Positions 6,074 to 26,628 of a DNA stretch of 64,000 bases are shown here, one piece after another. Numbering within the stretch: position 1 is the first letter of the stretch; each line of letters opens with the position of its first letter. Made by a program: the position numbers and the translations under genes. Under the pieces are notes generated by a model that was not told the origin of the DNA, searched no databases, and worked only from the letters and a program-made list of their open reading frames with translations. The DNA lies in assembly GCF_000428945.1 (NCBI RefSeq), contig NZ_AUAX01000014.1, positions 186,001 to 250,000 on the forward strand. The letters run 5' to 3'. Origin of the DNA: Hamadaea tsunoensis DSM 44101 (GTDB lineage: Bacteria; Actinomycetota; Actinomycetes; Mycobacteriales; Micromonosporaceae).

Positions 6074-7462
6074 CTACGCGACGGCTTTGTTCACAGCCGA
6101 GGTAAGCGATGCCCAGGCGGTCTGCTCCGTGGTCGTCAGGTCCGACCAACCGTGTGTGCCGAGCCAGCGGAGGAACGCCTTGGCTAGCTTGTACTTGGAG
6201 AAGCCAGTGATCTCGGCGGTGAAGATGTCCACGATCGGCCGTCCGGACTGGGCTGCGGCCGTCGCGGTGACGTCCCAGCCGAGGTCGGTCTTTGCGATGC
6301 CGACGAGGGTTTCTCTCAGTAGGTCCTCGATTTCGGTCCGGGTGACCGGGCCCGAGTAGTGGTCCTTCGTGCGCAGGATCTCCTTGCTCCTGACCAGGCG
6401 GACCAGCTCATCCTGCGTCGCCGCCTGATCGCCGGCGGCGTCGGAATCCAGCAGGGCCGCCACTTTGAGCCTTTGCCCCCGCAGCAGCGCGCAGTAATAG
6501 ACCACCTTGCTCGCGGATTGGGCGGGGGTGACCGCGATGTCGTCGCGCATTGTCGTGACGCCTGCCTCGCGCATCGCGCCGGCGACGCCTTCGAGCAGCC
6601 ACATGTCGGTCAGGCCCTCACACACCAGATTGCGCTTCTGCCCGAACAGACTCTGGGCGAGTTCGTAGCCAAGCGCGGCCTGCAGCGGGTATATCGACCG
6701 GGGGTCGTCGACGACCAGAGTGGAGTGGACCTTGGTACCGGTCTGACGATCCTTCATCTCCACCACCCGCACCAGGTGCAACTCGTCGGTGCCAACCATG
6801 AACGGCGAGTGCGTGGTGTAGATGATCTGGTTGTCCTTCGCGAGCATGGAGACCGTCTTGCGGAACTGCTGCTGCTTGAGCGCGTGCAGGCTCAAGCCCG
6901 GCTCGTCCAGCAGCAGGATCGCATTATTGAGCTTGCCCTTGGCCTGCGCCCGGAACACGACGAAGAAGCTGACCAGCCAGCGGAAGCCGTCGCTGCGCTG
7001 GTCGAGTTCCACCTCGACGCCGAGGTCGTCCTGCACGACGACCTTGAGGTACTGGCCATCGGCAACGAAGTTGAGGGTGACCTGGTCGTCGTTCCACACC
7101 TCCCGCACCATCTTGGTCAGTGCGACGCTGGCCGCGTTGAGCCGGTAGTGCCGGTCGTCGAGCTGGGCCTGCCACTGATCGACCTGGGTCCGGTACGCCG
7201 CCATCGCGTTTTGGTCATGCTGGTTGGGCGGCAAGACCGGCGCCGGCAGCGCCGCGAGGTCGGACAGTTCTTTCGCGCTGAAGCCGAGCAGGTCAAGAAG
7301 GCACAGGTTGCCGAAGTCGTACTCCTGGTCCAACTCGTTCGTCGCCTGCCGCTGGGCCAGGTTAGCCAGATGGATCCGCGGCCGGACCGAGAAGATCTGC
7401 GAGAAGTAGACGAAGACCGGCGTGCGCTCGATCAGCGCCGTCCACGCCTTCGCATGCGTAGC
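6074..7462 (-). pseudogene. OLD-like ATPase/TOPRIM nuclease, C-terminal half, split by insertion
   Basis: This reverse frame begins in a helical region (THAKAWTALIERTPVFVYF), then carries the ABC-type Walker B/D-loop LLLDEPGLSLH, an H-loop YTTHSPF and a TOPRIM nuclease domain (EGLTD near 6605, LLDSDAAGD near 6435). No Walker A is present, although OLD-type ATPases require one. The missing N-terminus with Walker A lies 12 kb upstream on the same strand at 19587-20222. Joining 7462 to 19587 gives one continuous frame of 674 residues. The frame itself stays open to 7966, but that extension runs into the inserted element. OLD proteins are DNA nucleases in phage-defence systems. As it stands the gene is interrupted, so this half is unlikely to work alone. 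Confidence 0.85.
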
Positions 7463-7486
7463 TGGCGGAGCGTATATATTCGGAAT
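7463..7486 (+). repeat. Left terminal inverted repeat of the insertion
   Basis: Reads inward TGGCGGAGCGTATATATTCG. It matches the right end at TGG, GAG, GTATA and CGGA after a 2-nt gap. It lies exactly at the break in the OLD-like gene. Confidence 0.6.
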
Positions 7487-9125
7487 CTGCGGTATTCCCT
7501 CGGCCTGCGCGCACAGGTCGCCCTCGCCTGGCTCACTCACGCCGCCTACGGCACCGGCGCGAACAGGCTGGCGCAGAGGCTCAGCGCGGCGTTCACTAGA
7601 TGGGATATCTGCCGCTGGTATTCCAGGTCCCGTCCCGACCTCCGGCGTAAGGCTCACCTGCTTGATGCCCGGTCGCGAGATCGTGAGGAGTGCCCTGCTA
7701 CGGCGGCCCGGGATCAGCGCCGCTATGACCTCCTGAAGACTGGACACAACGCGCCCTTTCGCCATCCACATGAGCGGACCGTGCTGGCGTCTGCGAGACC
7801 CGCGCTGCCGACGATAAAACCCGTGAGCACCGGGCGTCTCCGGATGCTGGGAATTGCGGTTGCGGTGGCCGGCGGGTAAGGCTTGCCGTCGCCAGAGCGC
7901 AGGCCGTGGCGTCCGCCGACGAGCAGCGGTCGGTCCTCGTCCGAGGACGACTTCACCCGGTTGCATATCGTGTCGAACTTGTGTCGGTCTCGGGCGAGGA
8001 AGGCGAAGCTTTGTTCAAGAGCCAACACGCTGCCGTCCTGAACGCCTCTGTCGGGCAGCGGCCAACGTGTATGCATCCGAGAATGCGGCCGGGTCAGTAT
8101 GGTTGAGCAGCCTGGAGGCGCTGACATCGCCGCGAGCGGGACGATCATCACCACGGAGCCAAGGTCGCTGCCGGTGCGAGAGCGGACAGGGTGGTCATGT
8201 CCGGGCCCACCCAGTTGCCGGGCTCCTGGCTGTCGGCGGAGCTGGCACTCCGATCGGGTGCTTCCACGGAAGCACGCCGCCGCCGCGGCCGTAACTGTCG
8301 CGGCACGCCTGCCGGACGGGCGCGCCCGGCGGTGGCGCGATAGCCTTTGCCCTGGCTACCTGCATTGGAGGCACCCGAGCGGTCGGCTCGGCGCGCCGGT
8401 GGCGCACCCGGTGGCCGAGCCGGTCTAGGTTTCGGTCCATCGGGGCGGGCGGGCGGGCGGCGGTTCCGCCGATCAGTGCAGCGCCTCGAGGTCGTCGCCC
8501 GGGTGGTGGTAAACCGTTGCCGATGTTGGACGCGATGGCTTCGCGTACCCAGTCCGGGTCGCGGTGTCGTCGGCCGCCGACATCCACTGGGCGATGACGT
8601 CGACGCCCTCGGTGGGGCAACCCTGCGCCTGGCCGGGCAAGGCGACCGCGATCCACACGTCTTCGCCGAGCAGCTGCACGGTTTCCGGATGGCGCGCGGA
8701 TTTTCGGCTCGGCGCCGATGCTGGAACTGTCGCCCAGGTCGTCGGCGTCGATGCCGTAGGCCGTTCCAGGTCGTGCATCCCGGCCAGGCCCGCCGTCAGG
8801 ACCATCGCATGGTCGGGGTGCTGCTGGGCGGGGGTGAGCCGGCCCTCGACGAGGCTGCCGAACTCGGCCCACGCCGCTTGCGTGGCGTCGACACCATGTC
8901 GCGCAGCGTCGACCAGTCCATCCCGGCAGCCGGGCCGTCGACGACCACTGTCCAGCACCGGTGGCGGCCGCCCTTGCGCACAGTGTCGGCCTGCACGCGG
9001 CGTCGCGCGGTTGCCCTGCCGGGCTGCCGCCGCGGTGCCGACCAGCGCCGCGGTGAACGTGGCGGGGTGTGCGTGTCCCGGATCGGACGCGGGTTCCTCT
9101 GGGAGCCGTTGCGATAGGTCGTTAT
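7487..9125. other. Left arm of insertion, no intact gene
   Basis: About 1.6 kb without a convincing intact gene. Several long frames on both strands read as Arg/Pro/Gly-rich shadow translations. The right half contains a probable decayed reverse-strand gene, listed separately. Nothing recognisable was found from 7487 to about 8470. Confidence 0.4.
8473..9125 (-). pseudogene. Decayed hypothetical gene
   Basis: Protein-like reverse-strand segments occur in different frames. DATQAAWAEFGSLVEGRL and QQHPDHAMVLTAGLAG are followed in another frame by AYGIDADDLGDSSSIGAEP, then back to VQLLGEDVWIAVALPGQAQG. A further frame near 8520-8560 gives DPDWVREAIASNIGNG. The shifts suggest at least two frameshifts in an old gene lying downstream of the LAL regulator. 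No family is recognised. Sequencing errors could give the same picture. Confidence 0.4.
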
Positions 9126-11873
9126 TTATGTGCCGGGGATGACAGCGTGTGCGAGTTGGATGCGCGAGTGGAGGCCGAGTTTCCGGTAGACGCGGGTGAG
9201 GTTCGCTTCGACTGTTTTGACGCTGATGGTGAGGGCTGTGGCGATGTCGCGGTTGCTCGCTCCGCTGGCGGCGAGCTCCGCGCAGCGCTGTTCGGCGGTG
9301 GTGAGGCGCGGGAGCGTGTCGCGGTGCGTGCGGGCGGGGTCCAGCCGGTGGAGGGTTCGGATGGCGGCTTCGTTCCAGGGGTGTGCCTGGTGGGTGTTGA
9401 AAAGCTCGGCGGCGCTCTGCGCGGCGGTGCGGGCGCTGGCGCGGCGGCGCCCGCGTCGTTCGGTGTGGCTGAGTGCCAGCAGGGTCCGGCCGCGTTCGAT
9501 GGGCAGGTGGTGGAGGTGGTCGGCTGCGTCGGTGAGGCGCTGGGCGGCTGCGTTATAGTCGCCCAGGGTGGCGTCCAGGAGTGCCTGGGAGCGTTCGAGC
9601 GCGGGCAGGACGGAGCTTCTCCCCAGGTCGGTAGCGGTGCGCCGGGTTTCGGTCAGCAGGTCTCGGGCTTGGTCGAGGTGGCCGAGGCAGATGAGGGCTT
9701 CGGCGAGGTCGGCGTGCCAGGGCAGGACGGATGGGTCGCGGACCTGCTGCCGGGTCTCAAGTGTCCGGACCTCCTCCAGCGCTTGCAGGGCTTCTTTCGG
9801 ATGGCCGGTGACCAGCAGAAGGTGTCCGAGGGCGAAGAGGTTCCGGGAGAGGAAGACCTTGTTGTCCTCCCGGCGGGCGGTGTCGGCCCCGCGGCGTGCG
9901 TGCGCGAGGGCGGAGTCGGTGTGCGAGGCGATGCCTTCGACGAGTGCGGAGGTGTAGCACGCCGGTCCGGGGTCCAGGCCAGCCCCGCCTGTCAGCGACT
10001 GGGCTCGGTCGGCGTAGTTCAGGGCACGTGCGCATCGTCCGGCGCGGATCTCGACTTCGGCGAGGCTGCGCAGGATGTCGACGGTGCCCTCGGCGTCTCC
10101 CGACCGCTCCGCTTCGACAAGCAGTGGCAGCAGGGCGTTGCGGGCTTCGTCCAGGTGGTCGTCGAAGAGGGCGTGGCGGGCACTGAGCTGTTCGGGTGTG
10201 GCGTTGACGGGGATGTGTGTGCTGCGTGGCAGGGACAGGGCGTGGCGGAGCGTTGTCTCGGCTTCGGGGTGGCCGAGGATGCGTTGGACGCGGGCCTGCA
10301 TGGTGAGGGCCATGGCGGTGGTGGCGGTGTCGCCGGCGGTCCGGGCCAGGCTGGCGGCCTGGGCGGCCAGGGCGCATGCCCGGCCGGGGTTGCCTTCGTT
10401 GACGTTGGCCCAGATCGCCTGGCGGATGAGGATCTGCGCGGTCAGGTCCGGCTGGTCGGCCGCCTCGTGGAGTGCGTCGGCGAACAGTTCGCCGGCGCTG
10501 TGCAGGTGCTGTCCGCCTGAGTCGATCAGGGTGATGAGGGCGTTGACGCGTTGGGCGGGGCTGCTGTCGTGGTGCAGGACGAGGCGGACCGCGATCTGGC
10601 CGCGGAGCAGGTCGCCGCAGTGCGCGGCGTCGCGGACGGCGGTCAGCGCCCGTTCGGTGAGCAGATCGGTGTCGGCGTGCGGGGTGCGTTCGGCGGCGAG
10701 CAGCGACAGTTCGGCCGCTAGTGCGTGTTGTCCGCGCAGCCTGGCGCGGGCGGCGGCGCGGGCGGCGTGGTAGGCCGACTGCGGGTCGGTGGTGTCGGCT
10801 GCCAGCGTGGTGTGACGGTCCCGGCGGACGCTGTCGTGGCTGGCTTCGGCCAGGCGGGTGTGCAGGAGCCTGCGTGCGGCCGCTGGCGGCCGGGCCGCGA
10901 GTTCTGCGCCGATCGCGGCGGCGGTGAACCGGATCTTCCCGTCGGGCTGCCCGATGTCGATCAGTCCGGCTGCCTCGGCCTCGGCCAGGAGGCTCTCGGC
11001 GGCCGGACCGGCGAGGCGGCTCAGCAGTACGAGGTCGGGCTGATCGTCGAGCGCGGCGAATGTCAACAGGTGCTGGACGTCGGCCGACACGGTTCCCAGC
11101 CATTCGCCCACCAGTCTTCGGGCCGCCGAGGGGAGCAACGGGTCGCCTTCGGGACCCCGAGTGGCCGACATGTTCGCGGTACGGTCGTGGGCCCCGGCCA
11201 GTGCCAGGGCCAGGGCCGGGTTTCCGCCGCTGCGGGTGTGGGCCTGGGTGACCTGGTTGGCGGACAGCCGGTACGGCGACAGCAGGGCCGCGATCTGCTC
11301 GGCCGTCATCGCGGGGATGCGCACGGTGCATGGGTCCTCCCCGCACCAGTGGCCTGCGGCCCCGGGATGCCACGTGCGTTCGGCCGCGATGACGGGAAGG
11401 TTCGGGGCCATGCGCAGGGCCCAGCGCAAGATGGCCGCGCTGGCCGGGTCCAGCCACTGGGCGTTGTCCACCAGCAGCGTCAGGGGCGGTGTGTCGCGCA
11501 GCAGTGCGGCGGTCAGCCGGCGCAGCCGCAGGGCGGTCTTCGTGTGATCGACCGAGCCGGGCTCTGCGGCGTCGTCGAGCCCTGCCGCCAGCTTCTGGGC
11601 GCCAGGCTGGGGCTGCAGGGCGAGCGCGAGTTCGAGCAGTGCGGCGTGGGGGATCCGGCTGTCTTGCGGGCCTGGGGCCAGACGCACGACGGGCAGCTTC
11701 AGTTGCTGCCCGAGGACACCGGCTGCGGTGGTCTTGCCGATCCCGGGTGGCCCGAACAGCACGACCCGTCGGGTGCGGTACACCTCGGCCGGTATCACTG
11801 GCAGCAGGTTGCCAGGCGGCTCCTGGAACGCACTCGTCACCGTCGGGAAGTCTGCCATCGGATCATGATGCAC
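9126..11873 (-). CDS. Large LuxR-family (LAL) ATP-binding regulator
   Basis: A 915-residue transcription factor of the LAL type. Walker A GPPGIGKTTAAG lies near residue 41 and Walker B LTLLVDNAQWLDP near residue 135. A long TPR-like helical middle follows. The last 65 residues form a LuxR HTH (LTTAEQRCAELAASGASNRD, VKTVEANLTRVYRKLGL). Such proteins bind ATP and a small ligand and activate nearby operons. It is divergent from the secreted metallopeptidase gene 163 bp away and is the obvious candidate to control it. Starts at 11873 or 11858 are both possible; neither has a strong ribosome site. It lies inside the 12-kb insertion. Confidence 0.9.
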   Translation of the reverse strand: MHHDPMADFPTVTSAFQEPPGNLLPVIPAEVYRTRRVVLFGPPGIGKTTAAGVLGQQLKLPVVRLAPGPQDSRIPHAALLELALALQPQPGAQKLAAGLDDAAEPGSVDHTKTALRLRRLTAALLRDTPPLTLLVDNAQWLDPASAAILRWALRMAPNLPVIAAERTWHPGAAGHWCGEDPCTVRIPAMTAEQIAALLSPYRLSANQVTQAHTRSGGNPALALALAGAHDRTANMSATRGPEGDPLLPSAARRLVGEWLGTVSADVQHLLTFAALDDQPDLVLLSRLAGPAAESLLAEAEAAGLIDIGQPDGKIRFTAAAIGAELAARPPAAARRLLHTRLAEASHDSVRRDRHTTLAADTTDPQSAYHAARAAARARLRGQHALAAELSLLAAERTPHADTDLLTERALTAVRDAAHCGDLLRGQIAVRLVLHHDSSPAQRVNALITLIDSGGQHLHSAGELFADALHEAADQPDLTAQILIRQAIWANVNEGNPGRACALAAQAASLARTAGDTATTAMALTMQARVQRILGHPEAETTLRHALSLPRSTHIPVNATPEQLSARHALFDDHLDEARNALLPLLVEAERSGDAEGTVDILRSLAEVEIRAGRCARALNYADRAQSLTGGAGLDPGPACYTSALVEGIASHTDSALAHARRGADTARREDNKVFLSRNLFALGHLLLVTGHPKEALQALEEVRTLETRQQVRDPSVLPWHADLAEALICLGHLDQARDLLTETRRTATDLGRSSVLPALERSQALLDATLGDYNAAAQRLTDAADHLHHLPIERGRTLLALSHTERRGRRRASARTAAQSAAELFNTHQAHPWNEAAIRTLHRLDPARTHRDTLPRLTTAEQRCAELAASGASNRDIATALTISVKTVEANLTRVYRKLGLHSRIQLAHAVIPGT

Positions 11874-11883
11874 CCGAGGTGCA
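11869..11883. promoter_or_regulatory. Palindrome over LAL start
   Basis: TGCACC-CGA-GGTGCA overlaps the first start codon of the LAL gene. A dimeric regulator bound here would block that gene. Autoregulation is inference. Confidence 0.4.
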
Positions 11884-12036
11884 TTGTGCGCCAGGACAAG
11901 GGGTTGCCCTGATTTCGGCCAGCCTCCGCCTTGCCTAAGGTCGTCGCCAAAGCCGAGCTGTCACCGGCTGCCGGACACCCCGCTAACCCGGGTCCTGCGG
12001 CCACCCCCTTAACCCCAGCCCGGCGGAAGGATTGCG

Positions 12037-15000
12037 ATGTATCGAAATAATGCTGCGGCGGCCGCTGCCGTGGTTCTGTTTGCAATGGGCGCCGTGACCG
12101 GGGTGGCCGCCCCGTCGACCGCGGCCACCCCGCCGCCTGCGCCCGCGGTGGCGCAGAGCCCGTTGTCGCTGGCGATCTCCGCGGCCGACCGGGCCGCCGA
12201 CGGCGGTCACGACGCGCTGGCCAAAGGCCCCTTCGAGCAGTACGACCGGCGCATGGTGATCCCGTGGGTCGACGGGCTGTTCTCCATCGCCTACACACGC
12301 ACCTACCGGGGCCTGCCGGTGGTCGGCGGCGACGCCGCCGTGCTCGCCGACGGCAAGGGTGCGATCCGGGCGATCTCCGCCGCCACCAAGACGAAGATCA
12401 ACGTGTCGGTGGTGCCGACCGTCGCCGTCGACCGTGCCGAGCAGACCGCCAAGAGCCTGCTCGCGAAGGTCGACCGGGTCGAGTCGCGCACCCTGGTGGT
12501 GCACGTCAAGGACAGCACCGCCCGCCTCGCATGGGAGGTCGTCGTCGCCGGACGCACCGCCTCGGCGCCCAGCCACCTGCACGTCTTCGTGGACGCGCGC
12601 ACCGGCCAGGTGCTGGCCAAGCAGGAGGACGCCGCGGCGGGCTCCGGCACCGGCAAGTGGAACGGGCCCAGTCCGCTGTCGATCACCACGTCGCAGTCGG
12701 GCAGCACCTACTACCTGCGCGACACCACCCGCTCCGGCCTGAACTGCCAGGACTACAGCACCAACACCGTCTTCTCCGGCCCGGACGACAGCTGGGGCAA
12801 CGGAGTGGGCACCAACACCGAAACCGGCTGCGTCGACGCCCTGTACTCGGCGCAGAAGGAATGGGACATGCTGTCGGGCTGGCTGGGCCGCAACGGCCAC
12901 AACGGCAACGGCGGCAGCTGGCCGATCAAGGTGGGCCTGAACGAGCAGAACGCCTACTGGGACGGCTCCACGATCACGATCGGTAAGAGCACCGCCGGCA
13001 ACTGGATCTCGTCGATGGACGTGGTCGGCCACGAGTTCGGCCACGGCCTCGACCAGAACACCCCCGGCGGCACCAGCTCCGAGTCCGGACTCGGCGAGGG
13101 CACCGGCGACATCTTCGGCGCGCTGACCGAGGCCTACGCCAACCAGTCCAGCGCCTACGACGACCCGGACTACCTCGTCGGCGAGGAGATCGACCTCGTC
13201 GGCAACGGCCCGATCCGCAACATGTACAACCCGTCGCTGGTCAACGGCGACCCGAACTGCTACTCCTCGTCGATCCCGAACACCGAGGTGCACGCGGCCG
13301 CGGGCCCGCTCAACCACTGGTTCTACCTGCTCGCCGAGGGCAGCTCGCCCGGCGGCGGCAAGCCCAACAGCCCGATCTGCTCGGGCGGCCCGTCGTCGGT
13401 CACCGGCGTCGGCATCCAGTCCGCCGGCAAGGTCTTCTACGGCGGCATGCTGCTCAAGACCTCCGGCATGACCTACAAGAAGTACCGCACCGCGACCCTG
13501 ACCGCCGCGAAGAACCTGGACTCCTCGTGCGTCCTGTTCAACCGGACCAAGGACGCGTGGAACGCGGTCACGGTCCCGGCCCAGACCGGCGACCCGACCT
13601 GCACCGCGACCAGCACCGACTTCTCGATGTCGATCAGCCCCACCTCGGGCGGCGTCAACGCGGGCTCCTCGGTGACCGCGACGGTCAACACCGCCACCGT
13701 CTCCGGCAGCGCGCAGACCGTGTCGCTGACCTCCTCCGGCGCCCCGTCCGGGGTCACCGTATCGTTCAGCCCGTCGTCGGTCACCTCGGGCGGCAGCTCC
13801 ACGATGACGGTGGCGACCACGTCCGGCGCGGCCGCGGGCACGTACACCATCACCGTGACCGGCACCGGGTCGGTCACCCACACGGCCCAGTACACGCTGA
13901 CGGTCAACGGCGGCACCCCCGGCGGCACCGCCCCGGACATCAGCGTGTCCAACGTGCAGGCGCACCTGACCCAGCTCAACACCATCGCCACCAACAACGG
14001 CGGCAACCGCCGCTCGACCGGCCAGGGCTACCTGCAGTCGGTGGCCTACGTCAAGGGCAAGCTGCAGACCGCCGGCTTCACCGTCACCGAGCAGCCCTGC
14101 ACCTCCGGCTGTACCAGCGGTGCCGGCCCGAACCTGATCGCCGAGTGGCCCGGCGGCAACGCCGCCAATGTCTACATGTTCGGCGCGCACCTGGACAGCG
14201 TCTCGGCCGGTCCCGGCATCAACGACAACGGCTCCGGCTCGGCGGCGCTGCTCGAGGTCGCTCTCGCGCTGGCCGCGCAGAACCCGACCATGCTGAACAA
14301 GGTCCGCTTCGGCTGGTGGACCGACGAGGAGCAGGGCCTGCTCGGCTCGAAGTTCTACGTCAACTCCCTCACCAGCACCCAGCGGACCGCGATCAAGGCC
14401 TACTACAACTTCGACATGATCGCGTCGAAGAACGGTGGCTACTTCATCAACAACATCACGTCGGCCGCGTCGCAGCCGATGAAGGCGTACTGGGACACCC
14501 TCAGCCTCCAGCCGGAGGAGAACGTCGAGGGCCAGGGCCGCTCCGACGACTACTCGTTCCAGAACGCGGGCATCCCGACCTCCGGCTACGCGATGGGCGC
14601 CAGCGCGACCAAGACCTCGGCCCAGGCGTCGAAGTGGGGCGGCACCGCCGGTCAGGCGTACGACTCCTGCTACCACTCGTCCTGCGACACCACCAGCAAC
14701 ATCAACGCCACCGGCCTGGACCGGGCCGCCGACGGCATCGCCTACACGCTGTGGAACCGGGCCGTCGGCACGTCCACCCCGACCGACGACTTCTCGATCT
14801 CGGCCAGCCCCGCCTCGGGCACCGTGAACGCGGGGTCCAGCACCACGACCACCGTCGGCACCGCCACCACCTCGGGCAGCGCCCAGACGGTGAACCTGAC
14901 CGCCAGCGGCGCCCCCACGGGCGTGACGGTCTCGTTCAGCCCGTCGTCGGTGACCTCCGGCAGCTCGTCGACCGCCACCATCACGGTCGGGGCGTCGGTG

Positions 15001-15546
15001 GCCGGCGGCACCTACACCATCACCGTCACCGGTTCGGGTTCGGCGACGCACAGCACCACGTACACGCTGACCGTGCCCGGCGGGCCGGGCGGCTGCACCG
15101 CGGCCCAGCTGATCCTCAACGGTGGGTTCGAGAGCGGCACCTCGCCGTGGACCGGCTCCACCGGCGCGATCGGCACCTCTATCGGGCAGGTGCCGCGCAG
15201 CGGCACCCGGTTCGCGTGGCTCAGCGGCTACGGCTACGCGGCGACCGACGCCATCAGCCAGACCGTCACCATCCCGTCGGGCTGCACCAGCGCGGTGCTG
15301 ACCTACTGGCTGCACATCGACACCGACGAGTACGAGGCGCTGGCCTACGACGTGTTCACGATCAAGGCCAACGGCTCCACGGTGGCGACGCTGTCCAACG
15401 TGAACGCGGCGGCGGGCTACACCCAGCGCACCATCAACCTCGGCGCGTACGCCGGCCAGACGGTCACGCTGACCTTCACCGGCACCGAGGACGCCTACCT
15501 GCAGACCAGCTTCGTGCTGGACGACGTGACCCTGCAGGTCGGCTAA
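12037..15546 (+). CDS. Secreted M4-M28 double metallopeptidase
   Basis: A 1169-residue secreted protein containing two different zinc peptidases. A signal peptide (about 1-30) and an FTP/PepSY-type propeptide precede an M4 thermolysin-like domain. Its HEFGH motif is at residues 332-336, with third ligand E354 in GEGTGDIFG and the transition-state histidine H419 in [14 protein letters not shown] beta-sandwich repeat (about 531-625) leads to an M28 aminopeptidase domain with H718 (GAHLDSV), D730, E764/E765, D793 and H880, a complete two-zinc set. A second copy of the same sandwich repeat (about 922-1015) and a C-terminal CBM-like beta domain follow. ATG 12037 has GGAAGG upstream. An endopeptidase joined to an aminopeptidase could digest proteins completely outside the cell. 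Domain identities are secure; the substrate is unknown. Confidence 0.92.
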
Positions 15547-15552
15547 GTTCAA

Positions 15553-15583
15553 CGGCAGGGTGGGGCGCTCGCCCCGCCCTGCC
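15553..15583. terminator. Strong hairpin terminator
   Basis: CGGCAGGGTGGGGCG and its near-perfect complement form a GC-rich hairpin seven bases after the metallopeptidase stop. Confidence 0.85.
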
Positions 15584-15698
15584 GCCTGTCCCGTTCCTCT
15601 GGTCACTGGTCCTCGGCCTGCAGCAGACGCCCGTGCGGCCCGGTGCGGGTCGTCAGCGGTCAACACACCACGGCTCGAGCCGGTTGTGTGGGAGGTGG

Positions 15699-17990
15699 TC
15701 ATCGCTGTGACCGGCTCGCGGCCGACGCAGCGCGTTCGCCGACGAAGGGGAGCCAGTCCCGCCTGGCGTAGCGCGTCCATCTGATCGCAGCCGTGATGCT
15801 GATCCCGAGGATCTTGCTCAATACCGGCGCGGGCAGGTCCTCAGCCAAGCTGATCAGTGCGGAGTTGCGCGCACGGCGAATTCGGATTCCGTGCTGGCGG
15901 AGTCTTTGGCACAGGGCGGCTGCCGAGATGGGCCGACCCGCCAGGCGACCGGGAAACAGCCACGGGGTGCCGGGCACAGCGCGCCCGACCAGCGACGAGG
16001 TGCGCGCTGCGGACGCGGCTTGCGTGATCAGGGCGGCGACGGCGGGCGGCAGCTGCGTACGATGTTCCTTGACCTGCAGGAAGTGCTTGCCGCCGCTGGT
16101 GGTGACATTGTCGGTGGTCAGGGTCGCGATGAACGTGACCGGCAAGCCGTAGATCAGCAGCAGCGACGCGGCCGTCCGGACGTCGACGGAGATCGTCGTG
16201 TCGTGCAGGAGGCGGTCGAGCAGCGCCCACCTCTGGTCTTCGGTCATGGACAGGTCGGGCCCAGACGGGGTGATCGCGGCGACGGACAGCTTCTGGGCCA
16301 GTCCTCTCCGGCTGGCCCATGTGAGGAAGTCGCCGAGAAGCCGCCGATTGAGGCCGCCGTCCTCTATCCATGTGTCGACGTGTGCCTGGCGAGCCCGCTC
16401 GAGGGTGAGGTCGGTCGTGTCGAGCCAACGCAGGAACGTCAGAGCTGTGGAGACTTTGAGGCGGGCGTTGCGGGCGCTGGCGGCGGTGAACCGGGTCCTG
16501 TCCGCGCGCAGCCTGGCACGCCTCAGTACCGACCAGTTGCCGTAGGCGCGCAACACCTGCCGGTGATGCGCGGGTGCGGTGGCCAGCGTCCGGCTCAGCC
16601 AGGGAGCCAGCCGCTCGAGTTGCTCGTCGCGGCGGGGCAGGACACCGGCGTGGACGAGCATCTCACGTAGTGCGGCAGCGGCTTGCTGCCGCGTTGCGGC
16701 ATCGAGGGCCTCATGCGTGATAGCGCAACCGGATCGCACGAGGTCACGTAGCAGTGCCGCACTGCCGTCACCACGCTCGACCCATGCCAGCACCGAACGC
16801 GGCCGATGCGCTGCGGCAAGCGCCGCCAGCAGCGGCGTGAGCTCCGCCGGAACAGATCCGTCGGGCCTGCGGAACTGGTCTTCCAGCTTTGATCGCGCGA
16901 CGCACCGGACGCATTCGCCGTGCCGGTATCGTTCCTCGGCTTGCCCGCAGGTACGGCATGTGTAGTCGATCGTGGTACCGGCGCACGGCCCGCACACGTC
17001 GCGGCCTCGGAAGTCGGCCGCGACGAGCACGCGTACTTTGCCGCAGGAAGGGCAAGGCGACGGGTTGGCGCGGGCGTGGCGGTAACAGTGGCGGCAGACC
17101 CCACCTATGGGCCAACGGGCGGCGGGCTGGCAGCTTGTGCCGCACCGGGCACATGGCGTGGCTCGTCTCGGCCGGCACGACACGCATAGCGGCCGCGCCG
17201 TGGCCACGAAGGCACAGGGTCGAAGCCGCTTGCAACCAGCACACTCCACCACGGGTTGCCGGTTGCAGCGCCGGCACAGGTCCGGGCCGCCGTCGCGACC
17301 GCGCACGGAAATCCGCCCCGTCCGGCCGCAGCGGCCGCAACGGCGCGGCTGCCGCCCGCCGCGCTCGTAGCAGGGCGGGCACAACGGCCCGTCCGGCCCG
17401 CGACGTGCGACCTTATCGACCCGCCCACACTCAGCACAGATGTGGACCGGCTTGCCATGGCACGTGCTGCACAGCGGCGACCCATCCGGAAGTCGACCGT
17501 TGACCCGCCGGGCTCGACCGCATCGCGAACACGGCTCGTGCCGACGCGGATCCCGGTCACGGCATGGATGGCACAGCGGACCTTCCGGCTCGATCACGGC
17601 TACGGGTCGGGTCTGCCCGCACCGCGCGCACGGGCGGGCCCGTGCCTTGGCCGCGCAGCTCTGGCACACGCGACCACGACCGCCGCGCCCAGGCAGATGC
17701 GTCCGCCGCAGGCCGCACTCGGCGCACACCGGCACCCGTACTGGATGGCCCTCGCCCTCCAGCAGCACCAGAAGCCGAAACGCGCCCGGTGGCGTGTCCG
17801 ACGATGCCGACACCAGGACGTCGAGCCCGCGCTGCAGAAACGCGTCGAGCTCTCGTAGACCGCGGCGCTTGTCCGCGTTGGCCGCCGCGACCAGCCGGAC
17901 GGCGTCAACCTGGGCCAGGCCGGGCAGGCAGGCACTGAGCCGGTCGAGCACCCGCTGGCGCATCGCGCCAACGAGTGCCTCCTTGGTCAT
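15699..17990 (-). CDS. Nine-zinc-ribbon protein with degenerate tyrosine-recombinase domain
   Basis: A 763-residue protein, last gene of the recombinase operon. Residues about 88-370 contain 18 CxxC knuckles in tandem, about nine zinc ribbons (CAECG, CQSC, CARCG, CHPC and so on). The C-terminal third has the core-binding and catalytic fold of phage-integrase proteins (TFLRWLDTTDL, LLLIYGLPVTFIATLTTDNV, GTPWLFPGRLAGRPIS, RWTRYARRDW). The first catalytic arginine of the usual GLR motif is replaced (GLP), and no HxxR motif is visible. It is probably an accessory or DNA-targeting partner rather than a catalyst. Its ATG overlaps the previous stop by 4 bp (ATGA), so translation is coupled. No named family is recalled with certainty. 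Confidence 0.8.
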   Translation of the reverse strand: MTKEALVGAMRQRVLDRLSACLPGLAQVDAVRLVAAANADKRRGLRELDAFLQRGLDVLVSASSDTPPGAFRLLVLLEGEGHPVRVPVCAECGLRRTHLPGRGGRGRVCQSCAAKARARPCARCGQTRPVAVIEPEGPLCHPCRDRDPRRHEPCSRCGRARRVNGRLPDGSPLCSTCHGKPVHICAECGRVDKVARRGPDGPLCPPCYERGGRQPRRCGRCGRTGRISVRGRDGGPDLCRRCNRQPVVECAGCKRLRPCAFVATARPLCVSCRPRRATPCARCGTSCQPAARWPIGGVCRHCYRHARANPSPCPSCGKVRVLVAADFRGRDVCGPCAGTTIDYTCRTCGQAEERYRHGECVRCVARSKLEDQFRRPDGSVPAELTPLLAALAAAHRPRSVLAWVERGDGSAALLRDLVRSGCAITHEALDAATRQQAAAALREMLVHAGVLPRRDEQLERLAPWLSRTLATAPAHHRQVLRAYGNWSVLRRARLRADRTRFTAASARNARLKVSTALTFLRWLDTTDLTLERARQAHVDTWIEDGGLNRRLLGDFLTWASRRGLAQKLSVAAITPSGPDLSMTEDQRWALLDRLLHDTTISVDVRTAASLLLIYGLPVTFIATLTTDNVTTSGGKHFLQVKEHRTQLPPAVAALITQAASAARTSSLVGRAVPGTPWLFPGRLAGRPISAAALCQRLRQHGIRIRRARNSALISLAEDLPAPVLSKILGISITAAIRWTRYARRDWLPFVGERAASAASRSQR

Positions 17991-18313
17991 TCGGCTGCCG
18001 GTCGACGAATGGCGGTCCGCCGCACTGGCGGCGGACCGGACCGGTCGACCTCGTCCACCGCCTTACGCACCGCAGCCTGCACCGGCTGCACTTCGATCAG
18101 GTCGTTGGGCGTGCAGCCGAGGATGTCGCACAACGCCGCCAGGGTGTCCATGCTGAGCCGCTGCGGAGGCTGGGTCACCAGCCGGAAAACCTGCTCACGG
18201 GACAAGTCAACGCCGCGCTCGGCCAGCAGCGGCACCAGCTCCGTCGTGGCGTACATGCCCTTCTCCGCCATCCGCAGCCGCAGATGCCATGCGATGGCAA
18301 GTCCGCTGGTCAC
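17987..18313 (-). CDS. Small XRE-type HTH protein of recombinase operon
   Basis: A 108-residue protein starting at a GTG that overlaps the recombinase stop codon (GTGA) and ending by overlapping the next gene (ATGA). The fold is a Cro/C1-like HTH: MYATTELVPLLAERGVDLS, EQVFRLVTQPPQRLSMDTLA, LCDILGCTPNDLIEV. A basic/proline tail follows. Coupling to both recombinase genes indicates a role in controlling or directing recombination, such as repression or directionality. The longer open frame upstream to 18571 overlaps the recombinase and is not needed. Confidence 0.85.
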   Translation of the reverse strand: MTSGLAIAWHLRLRMAEKGMYATTELVPLLAERGVDLSREQVFRLVTQPPQRLSMDTLAALCDILGCTPNDLIEVQPVQAAVRKAVDEVDRSGPPPVRRTAIRRPAAE

Positions 18314-19443
18314 AACGCCTCCCACAGATTCGGTCCGCGTGTCTGCAGAGCACGGGTCAACAGCCGGTTGCGGTACTCGTCGGACACCCCGGTGTACAAC
18401 GCGGTGGTGGAGGCGTAGGCGTGGCCGGCCTGCTCCTGCACGAACCGCTCGGGATACCCGAACTCGATCAAGTGCGTGACGTAGGAGTGCCGCAGGCAGT
18501 GCAGGTCCAGTGCCGGGTCCAGGCCGGCCGCCTCCCGGGCGGCGACGAACGCGTCGTTGAGGCTGCGCCACGACACCCGCTCATGGCGCTCGTTGACCCA
18601 CAACGCGGCGTGGCCGGCAGGCTGGAACCTGGGCCGCACCTCGTCCAGCCACTGCTGCAGCACCGCGACGATCCAGTCCATCTCCGGCACCAGCAACACC
18701 GTGCGGCGCTTGGGCGGACTGCCCCGCGACGACTTGCCCCAGCGCACCAGCGCAGCGCCGAACTGGCCGAAGTCCGGCACCCGCGGATTGCGACGAAGAT
18801 CGGCCAGATCCAGACCCCACGCCTCGCGGCGCCGAAGACCGAACGCATACACCGTCTTGAGCATCGCCGAGTCCCGCTGCGCAGCCAGGCCACCTTTGCG
18901 GCCCCGGGACCTGATCACCTCGACCCGCCCATCTGCGGCATCGAACAACGCCTGGACCTCGTCATAGGTCAGCGGGCGCCGACCCGGCCGGCCCTCGTAC
19001 TCTGAGACGTGCGCGATGGTGTTCCACTCGCCCAGAACCTGCCGCGGAGCACGCCCGAACCGCTCCTCGCACAGCTGCTGCCACTCGTAGCGCGGATCGG
19101 TGACGTATTCCAAGAACAACTGGATGCCGTTGAGGTACGCCCTGGCCGTCGAGTACACGATTGGCTTCGGGCCACCCCGCAGGTGATCGACGAACGCCTC
19201 GACCTCTGCTGCGCTCCACTCCCACGGGTACTGATTGGCAAAACGCGACAGCCGCCTCACCAGGTCCACGCGTCGCCGGATGGTCTCCGCCTTCAAAAAC
19301 CGCACCCGCTGCTGCCGTGACCAGCCCTCCAGCATGGCCTCCAGCACCGCCGGCGCCGGATCGAGAAAGACAACTCCCGATGACGGCAACAGATTGGGGG
19401 CGACGGTCGAGGCGGCCAGCTCCTTCATGGTTGCATTAAACAC
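18310..19443 (-). CDS. Tyrosine recombinase, catalytically complete
   Basis: A 377-residue phage-integrase-type recombinase and first gene of the three-gene module. An N-terminal SAM-like core-binding domain occupies about residues 35-150. The catalytic residues are all present: R204 in FGLRRREAWGLDL, H315/R318 in HCLRHSY, H341 and the nucleophile Y350 in HAYASTTALYTGVS. The start may be GTG 19443 or ATG 19428; neither has a clear ribosome site, so a leaderless mRNA is possible. It lies about 140 bp from the right end of the insertion and is the likely enzyme that moved it. It is on the same strand as the interrupted host gene. Confidence 0.92.
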   Translation of the reverse strand: MFNATMKELAASTVAPNLLPSSGVVFLDPAPAVLEAMLEGWSRQQRVRFLKAETIRRRVDLVRRLSRFANQYPWEWSAAEVEAFVDHLRGGPKPIVYSTARAYLNGIQLFLEYVTDPRYEWQQLCEERFGRAPRQVLGEWNTIAHVSEYEGRPGRRPLTYDEVQALFDAADGRVEVIRSRGRKGGLAAQRDSAMLKTVYAFGLRRREAWGLDLADLRRNPRVPDFGQFGAALVRWGKSSRGSPPKRRTVLLVPEMDWIVAVLQQWLDEVRPRFQPAGHAALWVNERHERVSWRSLNDAFVAAREAAGLDPALDLHCLRHSYVTHLIEFGYPERFVQEQAGHAYASTTALYTGVSDEYRNRLLTRALQTRGPNLWEAL

Positions 19444-19562
19444 AACATTGCGTCGTTAGTGACGGTATGACCCATTCGAGCCAGGCTAGCGGCGCGCCAT
19501 GGTCACTCGAGCGGCTGATCCCAGTCGTCACCCGCCATGCGAAGCAGTTGCATCGGAAGCAA

Positions 19563-19586
19563 CTCCGCTCGTATACCCTCCCAGCG
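19563..19586 (-). repeat. Right terminal inverted repeat of the insertion
   Basis: On the reverse strand it reads inward CGCTGGGAGGGTATACGAGC followed by GGAG. About 18 of 22 aligned positions match the left end with one 2-nt gap. It sits exactly where the N-terminal half of the OLD-like gene loses similarity to its family. Confidence 0.6.
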
Positions 19587-20222
19587 CACGGCGTGACGGA
19601 TGCGGTCAAACTGCTGCTCTGCCTTCTCGTCGTCCTCGTCCATGACCGGCAGCGCCGTCTCCAGCCAAGCGTCGAGCTTGGCGGCGAAGGTGCCGGTCAG
19701 GCGCCGGGCTCCGGCCACTCCCGTGATCAGCGGGTTCAAGGCGGCGACGACCGGTTCCCCGCCCTCCTGCTTCGACAGGTGCGCCTTGAGCCGGGTGATG
19801 CCCTTCTCGATGTCGGCGAAAGTACGCCAGCCAGCCACGCCGGGAAGCCACCACTTTCGCTGCTGATCGAGGTACCTCGTCACCTGCCACGTCTTGGCAT
19901 TGGCGAACACCACTGGGTCGATGGCCTGCAATACGGCCAGATCGTCCGGCTCCAGCGTGAAGGTGGCAACAGCGACCTTCACATCGCTGGGATCGACAGC
20001 GCCCGTAGTGATCTCGGTGTACCGGGCGCGGGGATAGTCGCGCAGCGGGTCAAGCTCGCAGTCGGTTCCGTCGGGCAGGTTGACCGTCTGCAGTGCCTTG
20101 AGCAACGCGGTCTTACCCGCCTCGTTCGCGCCGACGGCGATCGTCTTGTCCGCCTCGACCTCCCACTCCGTGGAGTCGTTGACCGAGCGATAGTCACGGA
20201 CATGTGCCTTGAGCAGCTTCAA
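19587..20222 (-). pseudogene. OLD-like ATPase, N-terminal half with Walker A, split by insertion
   Basis: The reverse frame starts at a TTG (20222) with GAGGAGG just upstream and begins MKLLKAHVRDYRSVNDSTEW, the usual opening of OLD/RecF-type ATPases. Walker A GANEAGKT is at residues 31-38. The frame continues through LDPLRDYPRARY to FDRIRHAV, then runs into the insertion and stops at 19503. It has no Walker B, signature or nuclease domain. Those are found in the separate half at 6074-7462. The start is preferred over the upstream extension to 20432, whose translation is not protein-like. Confidence 0.85.
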
Positions 20223-22685: not shown

Positions 22686-25600
22686 TCACTGTGCTCGCGC
22701 TGGGCCGCTGTCCGGGTCGAGAGGGTTGTCGAGTACGTCGGCGAGCAGGCCGGGGATCGTGAACGGGACTTTCGGATCCTTGGTGTAGGCGGTTGGCTCG
22801 ATGTCTCGGGTGATGATCAGCGGAAGTGCGCGCCATGATCGGCCGTCGGTCACGCCACATGCGCGGGCGGCTGCTTCCGGGTGCTGCTGGATTTGCTCGA
22901 CTTTGTCGAGCAGTTTGGGGATGAATCGCTTGCGTCCGTGGGTGAACTTGCGGATGTGGTCTCGCATGGTGGCGACGCTGTAGGGGGTTGCGAGGTCCTT
23001 GACCTCGCAGACCCACAGTCGTGAGGTGTTGGGATCGGCGATGAGTATGTCGATCTCGCCGACCGGGTTCGGGATGCCTTCGGCGTGCTGTTCATGCTGT
23101 GAGAATTGGAAGCGGTGTGGGAGGCGGGCGGCTGCGACGATGTCGCGTACGGTGCGCTCGAGTTCTCGGTTGCGGTCTTGGCGGTGTTCGACCATGGCGT
23201 TGACGACGACGGGCGGCAGTGCTGGTTGGGGCAGCCGGGCTGTGACGAGATAGCTGTTGTGGAGCTGTTGGGCTGCGTATATTAGCCACGGCATGAGCAG
23301 AATTTGGCCGTCGACGGCCACGAGCGGCCGGGTGGCCAGCCGGTGCGTTCGGCGTTCAACGTCGAGGAACCGTCGGGCGCCGTAGCTTCGCAGCTCTTCG
23401 GTGTCGATCTGAAGTAGACGCAGCGCCGCCTCGATTTGGGTGCGTGGAACGTCCGACCACGCAGTGGTCTCCCGGAGCAGATCGTCTACCTCCACCATTG
23501 CTACGCCATCGTCGTCGGTCGGCCAGTCGACGGCGGTGCCGAGTACGGCGGCGATGCCGTCGAGACCTGTGCCCACGGTGCTGGCCAGCAACGTGTCGAC
23601 CTGCAGGAGGGATGGTTCGGCGAATGTGTGCAATGGCTGAAACGAGCTAGGTTCGCGCTGCTGGTCGCGGCGGGGAAGGAAAGCTCCTTCGGGACTAGCC
23701 TGCTGGCCCAGATTCTGCACGGACCACGGCTCTTGGGCGGCGAGCGTGATGAGATGATCACGCTGAGCGCGATGATATTTCGGGAGGTCAATGTCGATCG
23801 GCGCGTCCTCTTCATCGGCCGCGGCATCGCCAGGTCGTTCGCGTTCGTTGTCCGCGATGTCTGGCTGAATGAAGTAGGCGCCGTGGCTGTCGACGTCGAC
23901 TCGGAGGCGGTGAAGGCCCCGTCTGAAACCGTCGTCGGTCGCGGCGGCGAGGATGAATAGCTCGGCGAGCGCAGCAAGTTCCCCAAGCTCGAGTGCATCG
24001 GGGGTGCGGGTGCCTGTCGGCGGCTCGGCGATCACCGCCTCCAACAGGACCTGCAAGGCCAATACGTTCGTAGGAAGGTCATCGTCGCGGAAGGCGTCGT
24101 GCCAGTTCGGCGCCCACGGCCCGGATAGCGCGTGCACGATCTGATGAGCCCGGCGCTGGTAGGTGGCTTGCGCAGCGTTGAGTCGGGCCGCCACCATGCG
24201 TACCAGGGAGGAGCCGCACCCGGCAATCCGGTCCTGCAGGACGGCCTCGATCGTCGGCAGGATTTCGTTTCGGCACATAGCGTGTGCCTTGGCGTCGAAG
24301 TAGGTGCCAGGAATGACACGAGGCCGCAGCTGATCGGCGACAGCGCGCATGGCGCGCCACCGAATCGCTGGCGTCCGCGGCAGGGTGTCGATCTCGGCCA
24401 CCTTCGGCCGGCCGTCGCTGACTGTGTGCAGCGTCATGAGCGGGCCGACCTCACGCCATGCCTCACGGAACACCGCGGCTGGTGTTCCAGGTCGGTCCTC
24501 TCGACCCGCCCGGATCCTGCGAACGAGTTCGTGAAGAGCGATGCCCAGCACGTCGTGGGCGCTCACCGGATCTGTGATGAGGAGTCCGAGAACGTCGGGA
24601 CCGATGACGATCTGCAGTAGAGCTTGCTCTGGTGCACACCCCACCCGCACGCCGTGTCCGCGGTCCGGATCGGGTGGCAGATCCGGCGTAAGGCCCAGCG
24701 CGATCGTCACGGGCGCGTCTGCGAGACGGAAATGCGCGGCGATCGTCTCATGGCGAGTGATGCAGTAGCGGACGGCGTCGGCGAGTCCCATGACGGTGTC
24801 GATGTCCAGGCGCAGCGGCGCTGCGTCGGAGCCGTCGATGAGGATGACCAGGGCCGGGTCGGTGTTGACTAGGGCAATGGTCCCGTTCGGCGTGGTGAGC
24901 AGGTTGGCGACGCTGTCGGTGTCGAGGCGCGCGGCCGGCCAGTCGCGGTGCTCGGGTAGGCCCGCTGCGGCGAGGACTGCATCGAACGGTTCCCACTCGG
25001 CCGCCTGCACCCAGGTTGGGTCGTAGTCGGCTTCCGCGATATATAGGGCCGTTTCCTCGGCGGGTTGCTTCTCGTCCAGCCGTCCGCTGTCGGGATCGGC
25101 CGGGAGCCCGATGCGTCCCCAGTCCCGCCACGCTGTCCACGCGTCGAGGATGTCCTGGAAGACGACAAGACCATGACCGGGGTGTTCGCCGAGGTCCTGC
25201 AGGAAACATTCAACAGCGGCCAAGTCACCAGCGGCGGCGTCGACGAGCTCGACGAATTCTTCGATATGAAGACGAATGACATCACGCACGTGATGGAGGT
25301 TGATGACCAACGGGCCGCCGTACAGCACCACGTTGACCCGGTTGCCGGCGTCCGCGGCCTCGGCCGCAACCGAAGGGCTCAGATCTTGGCCGAGCAGGTA
25401 CCGGGTGCGTGGCTCGTCCTGCGTTGGCAGGTCGAGTTGGTCGGTAGCCTCCTGGATCGCATCAGTGAAGTCGGCCGAATTCAAGGCGCTCGCTACCGCG
25501 ATCACCGTTCGCAGTCCAAAAACGGTCGGTGTGCCGCTGAGGTCAAGCTCTGGTGGTGCCGACCGGTCCACAGCCTGCTTGGAGAAAATCGCGACGGCGT

Positions 25601-26507
25601 GCCCATATGTCAGAGCCCGCAGCCGGTCAGCATCGGCGTCGCCGATCTCAGGGTGACGTAGCAGAATGTCTGCCGCCGCGTTCAAGGCGTCGATTGTCAA
25701 GCTGGCCGGGACGGGGAACACCGTTCCGGCCGAGCGCAGCCGGAGGACCGCTCCCAGCAACGGTAGGCCCGGCGTGTCGTTGAACGACGCCATGCCGACA
25801 TCGCAGGTGAGCCAAGCCAATGCCAAGGCCGCGCGCTCAGGTCGGCTGCACCGGTTCGTCAGCTGCTGTTCGTCTCGGTGCGCAGCCATGGATTGCGCAA
25901 CGGCTTCCACCTCGGCCGTCGACACCACCGGTATGTTGAGAGAGTCGGCCGCCTTTTCGTCGGACGTAGCGACCCAAGCTGCGGCCAGCCTACAGACGAT
26001 GTCGTCGCCGTGGGCCAGAACTACTTCGATCACGTCGGTCAGAGTGAACCCGACGGCCCGCAACAGGGTGCTGTCGACGGCTCGGGCCGTCGTGTCGAGT
26101 CGCCGCAACGTCATAAGTGGATAGAGGTTGTCGCCGGGGTGCAGCCGCCAGCGGCCGCCGGCGATACTGAACCCGACTGACTGCCGTGGATCATTCGTTG
26201 CTCCGGACGGCTCCACAGCATGACCTATGACCTCGACGGCTGCATCTACAAGCTCGGCAAGATCTGGGTATGTAGCCGGCCGGCTACCGGTGGGCGGCAT
26301 GCTGACCGCCCGGAACCACAGCAGCGTGAGGTGCCGCTGCCACGGCCGTGTCCATGGCGCGTCGATCGCGGCACCCAGCAGCGGGATAATCGAATCTGCC
26401 GTGAACCTTCGCAGCGCCCTATCGATTGCAGCCCAGCCAGCAGCATCCCCAGCAAGAGCAGACTCGCCGGGACCGTCAGCGTCGCCATCAGCCATGGCGT
26501 CCATCAT
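22686..26507 (-). CDS. Giant hypothetical protein with C-terminal PD-(D/E)XK nuclease domain
   Basis: A protein of about 1273 residues. Most of it is helical and unrecognised (segments such as LYPLMTLRRLDTTARAVDST and HDVLGIALHELVRRI). The last 170 residues contain the restriction-endonuclease-like signature GEIDIL (near residue 1150), 15-20 residues, then VCEVKDL (near 1166), with downstream basic helices. That is the D...ExK arrangement of PD-(D/E)XK nucleases. Starts GTG/ATG/ATG in tandem at 26510-26502 follow TTAGGTG. Giant proteins with a terminal nuclease domain in variable islands are often antiviral. That role is inference; the nuclease fold is well supported by the motif. Confidence 0.75.
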   Translation of the reverse strand: MMDAMADGDADGPGESALAGDAAGWAAIDRALRRFTADSIIPLLGAAIDAPWTRPWQRHLTLLWFRAVSMPPTGSRPATYPDLAELVDAAVEVIGHAVEPSGATNDPRQSVGFSIAGGRWRLHPGDNLYPLMTLRRLDTTARAVDSTLLRAVGFTLTDVIEVVLAHGDDIVCRLAAAWVATSDEKAADSLNIPVVSTAEVEAVAQSMAAHRDEQQLTNRCSRPERAALALAWLTCDVGMASFNDTPGLPLLGAVLRLRSAGTVFPVPASLTIDALNAAADILLRHPEIGDADADRLRALTYGHAVAIFSKQAVDRSAPPELDLSGTPTVFGLRTVIAVASALNSADFTDAIQEATDQLDLPTQDEPRTRYLLGQDLSPSVAAEAADAGNRVNVVLYGGPLVINLHHVRDVIRLHIEEFVELVDAAAGDLAAVECFLQDLGEHPGHGLVVFQDILDAWTAWRDWGRIGLPADPDSGRLDEKQPAEETALYIAEADYDPTWVQAAEWEPFDAVLAAAGLPEHRDWPAARLDTDSVANLLTTPNGTIALVNTDPALVILIDGSDAAPLRLDIDTVMGLADAVRYCITRHETIAAHFRLADAPVTIALGLTPDLPPDPDRGHGVRVGCAPEQALLQIVIGPDVLGLLITDPVSAHDVLGIALHELVRRIRAGREDRPGTPAAVFREAWREVGPLMTLHTVSDGRPKVAEIDTLPRTPAIRWRAMRAVADQLRPRVIPGTYFDAKAHAMCRNEILPTIEAVLQDRIAGCGSSLVRMVAARLNAAQATYQRRAHQIVHALSGPWAPNWHDAFRDDDLPTNVLALQVLLEAVIAEPPTGTRTPDALELGELAALAELFILAAATDDGFRRGLHRLRVDVDSHGAYFIQPDIADNERERPGDAAADEEDAPIDIDLPKYHRAQRDHLITLAAQEPWSVQNLGQQASPEGAFLPRRDQQREPSSFQPLHTFAEPSLLQVDTLLASTVGTGLDGIAAVLGTAVDWPTDDDGVAMVEVDDLLRETTAWSDVPRTQIEAALRLLQIDTEELRSYGARRFLDVERRTHRLATRPLVAVDGQILLMPWLIYAAQQLHNSYLVTARLPQPALPPVVVNAMVEHRQDRNRELERTVRDIVAAARLPHRFQFSQHEQHAEGIPNPVGEIDILIADPNTSRLWVCEVKDLATPYSVATMRDHIRKFTHGRKRFIPKLLDKVEQIQQHPEAAARACGVTDGRSWRALPLIITRDIEPTAYTKDPKVPFTIPGLLADVLDNPLDPDSGPARAQ

Positions 26508-26628
26508 CACCTAACTCGTGCGCCTATCCCGAGCGGTTTCCTCCGGGGAGGATCCCGATGTCGCGCCTGACACGAGCGTACGGACGATGTGGCCCGACCG
26601 TGTCTGCGCTACAAGCGGAGCTGTGCCT

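Follow-up and report, generated by a model that had tools for sequence, protein, structure and literature searches.

The divided OLD-like gene

The window, i.e. the whole stretch of 64,000 nucleotides of Hamadaea tsunoensis DNA analysed here, carries both halves of an OLD-like gene on the minus strand and in the right order, with a block of 12,115 bp between them (Table 1). OLD-type proteins are ATPase-TOPRIM nucleases in phage defence. The motifs are distributed as the earlier note had said: by eye, Walker A (GANEAGKT) lies on the N-terminal part and Walker B, H-loop and TOPRIM on the C-terminal part. Pfam AAA_15 matches both parts and PADLOC 'Old' is the best match of the C-terminal part (8.6e-23 and 2.1e-26, respectively, in a comparison of the two parts and the intact homologue L005); the Pfam OLD-like TOPRIM family scored below the cut-off of 23.2 for the C-terminal part and L005 (20.7 and 19.1). 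OLD-family nucleases combine the AAA ATPase and TOPRIM domains in one chain encoded by a single gene; the same domains are present here, but the chain is cut in two by the element. Since the ATPase motifs sit on two polypeptides, the gene is off at present. A defence role of this particular protein would be that of its family. A 1274-aa open frame (window 22686-26510), for which no Pfam or PADLOC match was obtained, is located upstream of this gene at a distance of about 2.5 kb.

Table 1. Window coordinates of the OLD-like gene parts, the element and its features.
Feature	Position	Strand	Basis or remark
N-terminal part of OLD-like gene, Walker A	19575..20222	-	TTG start (inferred), GAGGAGG upstream
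C-terminal part of OLD-like gene: Walker B, H-loop, TOPRIM, stop	6074..7459	-	motifs, Pfam, PADLOC
Whole putative mobile element, 12,115 bp	7460..19574	-	divergence points of five copies with different flanks; written int end first
Tyrosine recombinase Int, 377 aa	18310..19443	-	R204, K237, H315, R318, H341, Y350 invariant
Small XRE-type helix-turn-helix protein (HTH_26)	17987..18307	-	Pfam; start inferred
763-aa protein: CxxC zinc-ribbon-like array and predicted degenerate tyrosine-recombinase fold	15699..17990	-	alignment, model
Cargo: M4 (thermolysin-like) and M28 metallopeptidase, 1169 aa, probably secreted	12037..15546	+	
Cargo: large ATPase LuxR-type (LAL-like) regulator, 915 aa	9126..11873	-	Pfam
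Terminal motif, int end, TACGAGCGGAG, one base inside edge	19563..19573	-	recurs in relatives
Terminal motif, far end, AGCTGGCGGAG	7460..7470	+	recurs in relatives
Palindrome-like TTGCTTCCGATGCAA	19548..19562	-	recurring at int end of relatives

The earlier note had rejoined the gene by linking base 7462 to base 19587. This join is indeed in frame and yields 674 aa, but three residues are lost compared to the homologues. Removal of 7460-19574 instead joins CGC TGG GAG GGT to ACG CAT GCG and gives a protein of 677 aa (...RIRHAVRWEG/THAKAW...), which aligned without a gap across the junction with the homologues of genomes G241 and G166; the DNA alignment with G241 contains two mutually cancelling one-base gaps a little upstream of the junction. 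The insertion falls between two OLD codons, and neither loss or gain of sequence nor a target duplication was seen against the homologues.

The OLD C-terminal part was matched in 34 of 300 family genomes, the window's own included, and three others carry homologues at least 66% identical to it. In G166 the homologue is one open frame of 681 codons, in G241 (L070) it is continuous across the insertion site, and the nearest homologues spanning this site are 77% (G241) and 60% (G166) identical. Two of the three closest homologues are damaged, that of G241 by a frame change near residue 104 and that of G218 (L205) by reduction to a remnant matching residues 254-614. Searches of three genus mates gave no match to the C-terminal part at E<=0.001, and no empty site in this OLD allele was found in the genomes searched.

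Five copies define the edges of the element

Copies in G128, G117, G001 and G053 (together L066-L069) align with window 7460-19574 at 94-99% identity, with Int protein matches of 96-100%. These four copies have unrelated flanks, share 7460-19574 and diverge there; BLAST extended at most 4 bases beyond the shared edges in two of them, by chance matches. The G053 copy has a gap of about 1 kb (window 7962-9011). All five copies start with ATACGAGCGGAG and end with CCGCCAGCT, the flanks differ in five of five, and none of the other copies was matched by the window copy's flanks of 3 kb. Finding the block again in four further genomes, each time with other flanks, excludes chance. The edges 7463-19586 given in the earlier note were 3 bases off at the left and 12 off at the right (9 net).

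A 675-base DNA probe of the int end was compared with 354 genomes of the Micromonosporaceae, including Catellatospora genomes and the window's own genome of 9.48 Mb. It detected the five copies at 91-100% over the probe and no further copy among the best two candidates scored per genome, the next-best match being 73% over part of the probe. Part of the inverted repeat described previously is host DNA, since GGGAGGGT in its right arm codes for OLD. In relatives, the recurring terminal motif is TACGAGCGGAG, read 19573-19563, versus AGCTGGCGGAG at the far end. Upon excision of the element, a circle junction of ...CGCCAGCT joined to ATACGAGCGG... would be expected.

Genes of the element

R204, K237, H315, R318, H341 and Y350 of Int are invariant in an alignment of 19 sequences and presumably constitute the catalytic set; judged from its sequence, Int is a catalytically complete tyrosine recombinase. 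The N-terminal half of the 763-aa protein contains a run of CxxC pairs, and no Pfam or NCBIfam family matched this protein. Its AlphaFold2 model, built on 26 sequences (mean pLDDT 87.2, pTM 0.53), retrieved 48 PDB chains at E<=0.001 in Foldseek, all of them tyrosine recombinases, with lambda Int as best match (5.8e-6). At the sequence level the match to XerD was weak (E 0.033) and hhalign of the C-terminal part against Int gave no match. By eye, tryptophan occupies the place of the catalytic tyrosine in most rows of the alignment and the first catalytic arginine is absent. The modelled protein thus seems to be a pseudo-recombinase with zinc ribbons that lacks the catalytic tyrosine.

Behind these genes lie the two cargo genes and then the far end of the element, window 7463-9125, in which no clear intact gene was recognised. 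The protease cargo is far more divergent across the four other copies than the rest of the element, with 4-17% synonymous changes. Compared to the window, G117 and G001 show 0 synonymous changes in int and one each in the LuxR-type gene, versus 73 and 38 changes at 913 sites of the protease gene. The respective counts are 155/913 in the protease and 178/754 in the LuxR-type gene for G128, and 76/913 in the protease and 59/291 in int for G053. Three of the four other copies are without synonymous change in int; overall, int of G128 has no change and that of G117 one change. The simplest reading of this mosaic would be recombinational exchange of cargo within an otherwise near-identical element. 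Host paralogues were rejected as the direct source of the diverged protease cargo, with at most 69% identity for the best ones.

Target sites of the five copies

The copies in G117 and G128 occupy the same codon of genes for ATP-dependent DNA ligases (Pfam 4.4e-30 and 2.1e-28), close to the 3' end. As the two ligases are 49% identical while int differs from that of the window by at most one change, these insertions are most simply taken as independent events at one site. The ligases of G000, G001 and G053, and the further ligases of G117 and G128, are all at most 38% identical to the G117 ligase. Over 40 bp on the int side, the OLD site agrees with the two ligase sites in 41 of 80 positions (empirical p 4.8e-5, relative to every position on both strands of the window after removal of the element); this is the best of six site windows tried, the other five giving p of 5e-4, 4e-3, 3e-3, 0.07 and 0.3. 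For the G001 site the fit to the pattern is weak (p 0.08 to 0.3), for the G053 site it is absent, and joining the flanks in G001 or G053 restored no convincing gene. On these very few insertions, the data suggest that DNA ligase may be the preferred site and OLD a substitute.

Related elements and their targets

A genome scan yielded 78 related loci, 67 of which match int, HTH and large protein, as counted by presence of the matches and not by order or spacing. The other 11 are without one or two of the three, several of them near contig ends, and in L122 and L139 the matches to the trio are far apart or short. Paired like copies give the same ends in Kutzneria (4,010 bp, 100%), Kibdelosporangium (6,022 bp, 98%) and a Rhodococcus plasmid pair (3,766 bp, 3,762 identical inside). 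Some relatives, at about 4 kb, are too short to accommodate cargo. At the int end, 61 of 75 rows score at least 16/23 against the consensus, with 52 distinct left flanks among them. Several recombination systems stand in a row on Rhodococcus plasmids (L063:1-6382, L206), where the trio element is preceded by another recombinase gene, a TnsA-like gene and a pair of recombinases with DUF6262, of Tn554-like appearance.

Pfam named several targets: a C5 DNA methylase (L124), a DNA ligase interrupted at another codon (L111), NlpC/P60 (L116, with L117 as partner by likeness), an MvdD ATP-grasp protein (L105) and, by a weak match, a class-II glutamine amidotransferase (L076). The frame leading into the junction encodes a Tn3 transposase at L084 (2228-3127; Pfam 4.7e-36) and at L106 (3-98; 1.6e-4, below cut-off), so these relatives interrupt another mobile element's own gene. 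At ten loci the end is the MRxxE motif of a large protein (L083, L085, L086, L087, L089, L093, L094, L098, L100, L127). The rest of this target shows, by eye, HxxR, GH and Y motifs at two of the ten (L098, L127), and by these motifs it appears recombinase-like; the parts tried obtained no Pfam or NCBIfam name, and a PDB search with the C-terminal part of one such target gave no match. At six further loci (L081, L082, L091, L092, L095, L096) the end is a GYGR motif in what we take, by eye and recall, to be an HNH-like nuclease gene. Eight flank frames at unnamed sites had no Pfam match.

We grouped the targets by hand into ten types, namely OLD, two ligase sites, MRxxE, Tn3, GYGR, methylase, NlpC/P60, ATP-grasp and a nameless Cys-rich protein. 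Wherever the target could be named it reads in the direction of int (10/10 types), and the junction lies between codons in all types except ATP-grasp (9/10). The corresponding chance values of about 0.002 and 0.001 are rough, the grouping being post hoc, confined to plus-strand frames and exclusive of many unnamed sites. The five identical rows from mycobacteria (L143, L144, L146-L148), whose motif resembles the Cys-rich one, have another phase.

Comparison with known kinds of elements

XER modules have been described on the Antarctic Arthrobacter plasmids pA2H2, pA8H1 and pA40H2, in a 2018 paper whose authors saw in them a possible new integrative element, situated between umuC and umuD, and proposed that it is mobile (PMC6305408). 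With pA2H2, the one of these plasmids compared, the trio shares gene order and gene-for-gene homology, i.e. tyrosine recombinase (46.6%, E 7.6e-105), XRE protein (35.3%, 4.3e-22) and large third protein (29.6%, 1.9e-66). In both cases variable cargo stands behind the core, and the pA2H2 module directly follows umuD and is oriented like it. The element differs from XER modules in cargo, in target and by the identity of 30-47%; moreover, the third gene is called XerC there (PMC6305408), whereas our model predicts zinc ribbons and a degenerate core. The sections of PMC6305408 consulted give no ends, target rule or protein structure, and in the literature searched, including the consulted sections of PMC5385486, PMC10214605, PMC8138268 and PMC3414803, the trio is described only in PMC6305408. 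By homology and gene order, the element is a new member of this barely described kind.

With Tn554, SE, RIT and GInt the element has in common a tyrosine recombinase, a preference for certain sites and the carriage of cargo. Membership in each of these groups fails on at least one tested feature. RIT elements consist of three tyrosine recombinases, all with the catalytic tyrosine; here the middle gene encodes an HTH protein and the third is degenerate, and this assignment was rejected. Int weakly matches a recombinase on a Rhodococcus plasmid (33% over 57 aa, E 0.002) that we take to be Tn554-like.

The Tn554 family, including its actinobacterial relatives, comprises tyrosine-recombinase transposons with site preference, no target duplication, and one normal-sized and one long recombinase-like protein, all as here; however, both of its recombinases carry the catalytic motif and are accompanied by TnpC (PMC3414803, in the part consulted), while here one is degenerate and an XRE protein is present. 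The SEs resemble our element in the terminal position of the recombinase operon, in imperfect repeats at the ends, in preferring certain sites and in carrying cargo, but differ in having four core genes, two catalytic recombinases and a 6-bp footprint, and in occurring in Gammaproteobacteria (PMC10214605, in the part consulted). A 6-bp footprint is also typical of Tn554. At the OLD junction, no extra bases were present after removal of the shared part, and among sister copies, compared within four groups, no 6 bp on the right equalled any 6 bp on the left (at most 4/6, sampled donors only). Membership in the Tn554 or SE group was rejected on this footprint, within the copies sampled, and on the second catalytic recombinase, the 763-aa protein having by eye no tyrosine at the expected place. 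The GInts (PMC5385486, in the part consulted) likewise have a recombinase operon, cargo and a short end and insert in genes; one of their operon proteins lacks the active-site arginine and transcription enters the operon from outside, features to which ours may be likened. They differ in having three integrase genes and a small HLH protein. Imperfect direct repeats of 10-17 nt flank the GInts; in our five copies the longest exact word shared by the two junction regions (30 bp either side, exact words only) is 6-7 bp. GInt membership was rejected by comparing gene content with the ginABCD operon.

Discussion

The presence of five copies, the complete active site of Int and the cleanly restored frame support the reading, already put forward in the earlier note, that a recombinase-bearing mobile element inserted in an OLD-like gene; the same ends at five different places bear it out. 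We consider it very probable that 7460-19574 is a site-selective, tyrosine-recombinase-driven element of the XER-module type, most likely an ordinary insertion at a secondary target. In the proposed layout Int, the XRE protein and the large third protein are followed by cargo and then a short end. Int would cut and rejoin the DNA, the zinc-ribbon pseudo-recombinase may help to choose or hold the target, and the XRE protein may regulate or assist. Element and host gene are read in one direction, so that transcription from the OLD promoter may continue into the recombinase operon.

That the two parts are separate OLD-resembling genes, or were brought into this arrangement by an assembly join, is hardly conceivable, since the G166 homologue is one open frame, that of G241 is continuous across the site, the protein is gap-free at the junction and the ends are the same in five assemblies. 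A far more serious alternative, which we nevertheless hold less probable than its opposite, is a one-way insertion of the copy-out type, in which circles are made, the empty site is not regenerated and OLD is a plain pseudogene. Some tyrosine-recombinase elements do not regenerate the empty site, and SEs with their two tyrosine recombinases behave in this way (PMC10214605, in the part consulted); the lack of an empty site in the genomes searched would fit. However, SEs and Tn554 leave a 6-bp footprint, and neither the OLD junction nor the sampled sister copies show one.

It is quite improbable, in our view, that the element acts as a programmed or phase-variable switch, kept in OLD and leaving under some condition to turn defence back on. 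The precise frame-restoring join, the complete recombinase active site and the still open OLD parts are what such a switch would need, but the element has no fixed link to OLD: its four further copies lie elsewhere, and the three genus mates searched had no match to the C-terminal part at the threshold applied. Open halves also fit a recent insertion, which is suggested by how nearly identical the copies are over most of their length. Our preferred reading remains an ordinary insertion, with OLD as a secondary target. Beyond this, one may speculate on a widespread actinobacterial class of homing-like transposons that seek out conserved motifs in the coding sequence of genes for DNA processing (recombinases, Tn3 transposases, ligases, methyltransferases and OLD nucleases). 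In such a class a zinc-ribbon pseudo-recombinase would choose the target and an active tyrosine recombinase cut it, with scarless entry between codons in host-gene direction, and each insertion would be a reversible off-switch for a rival mobile element's gene or a defence gene; we consider this generalisation as a whole unlikely.

The precise ends and the four near-identical sisters elsewhere turn the XER-type kind into a defined element whose attachment sites, proposed division of labour between active and pseudo-recombinase, and target preference for conserved motifs are testable. Furthermore, the silencing of a defence-type gene links the target choice of a mobile element with the loss, and possible regain, of phage defence.
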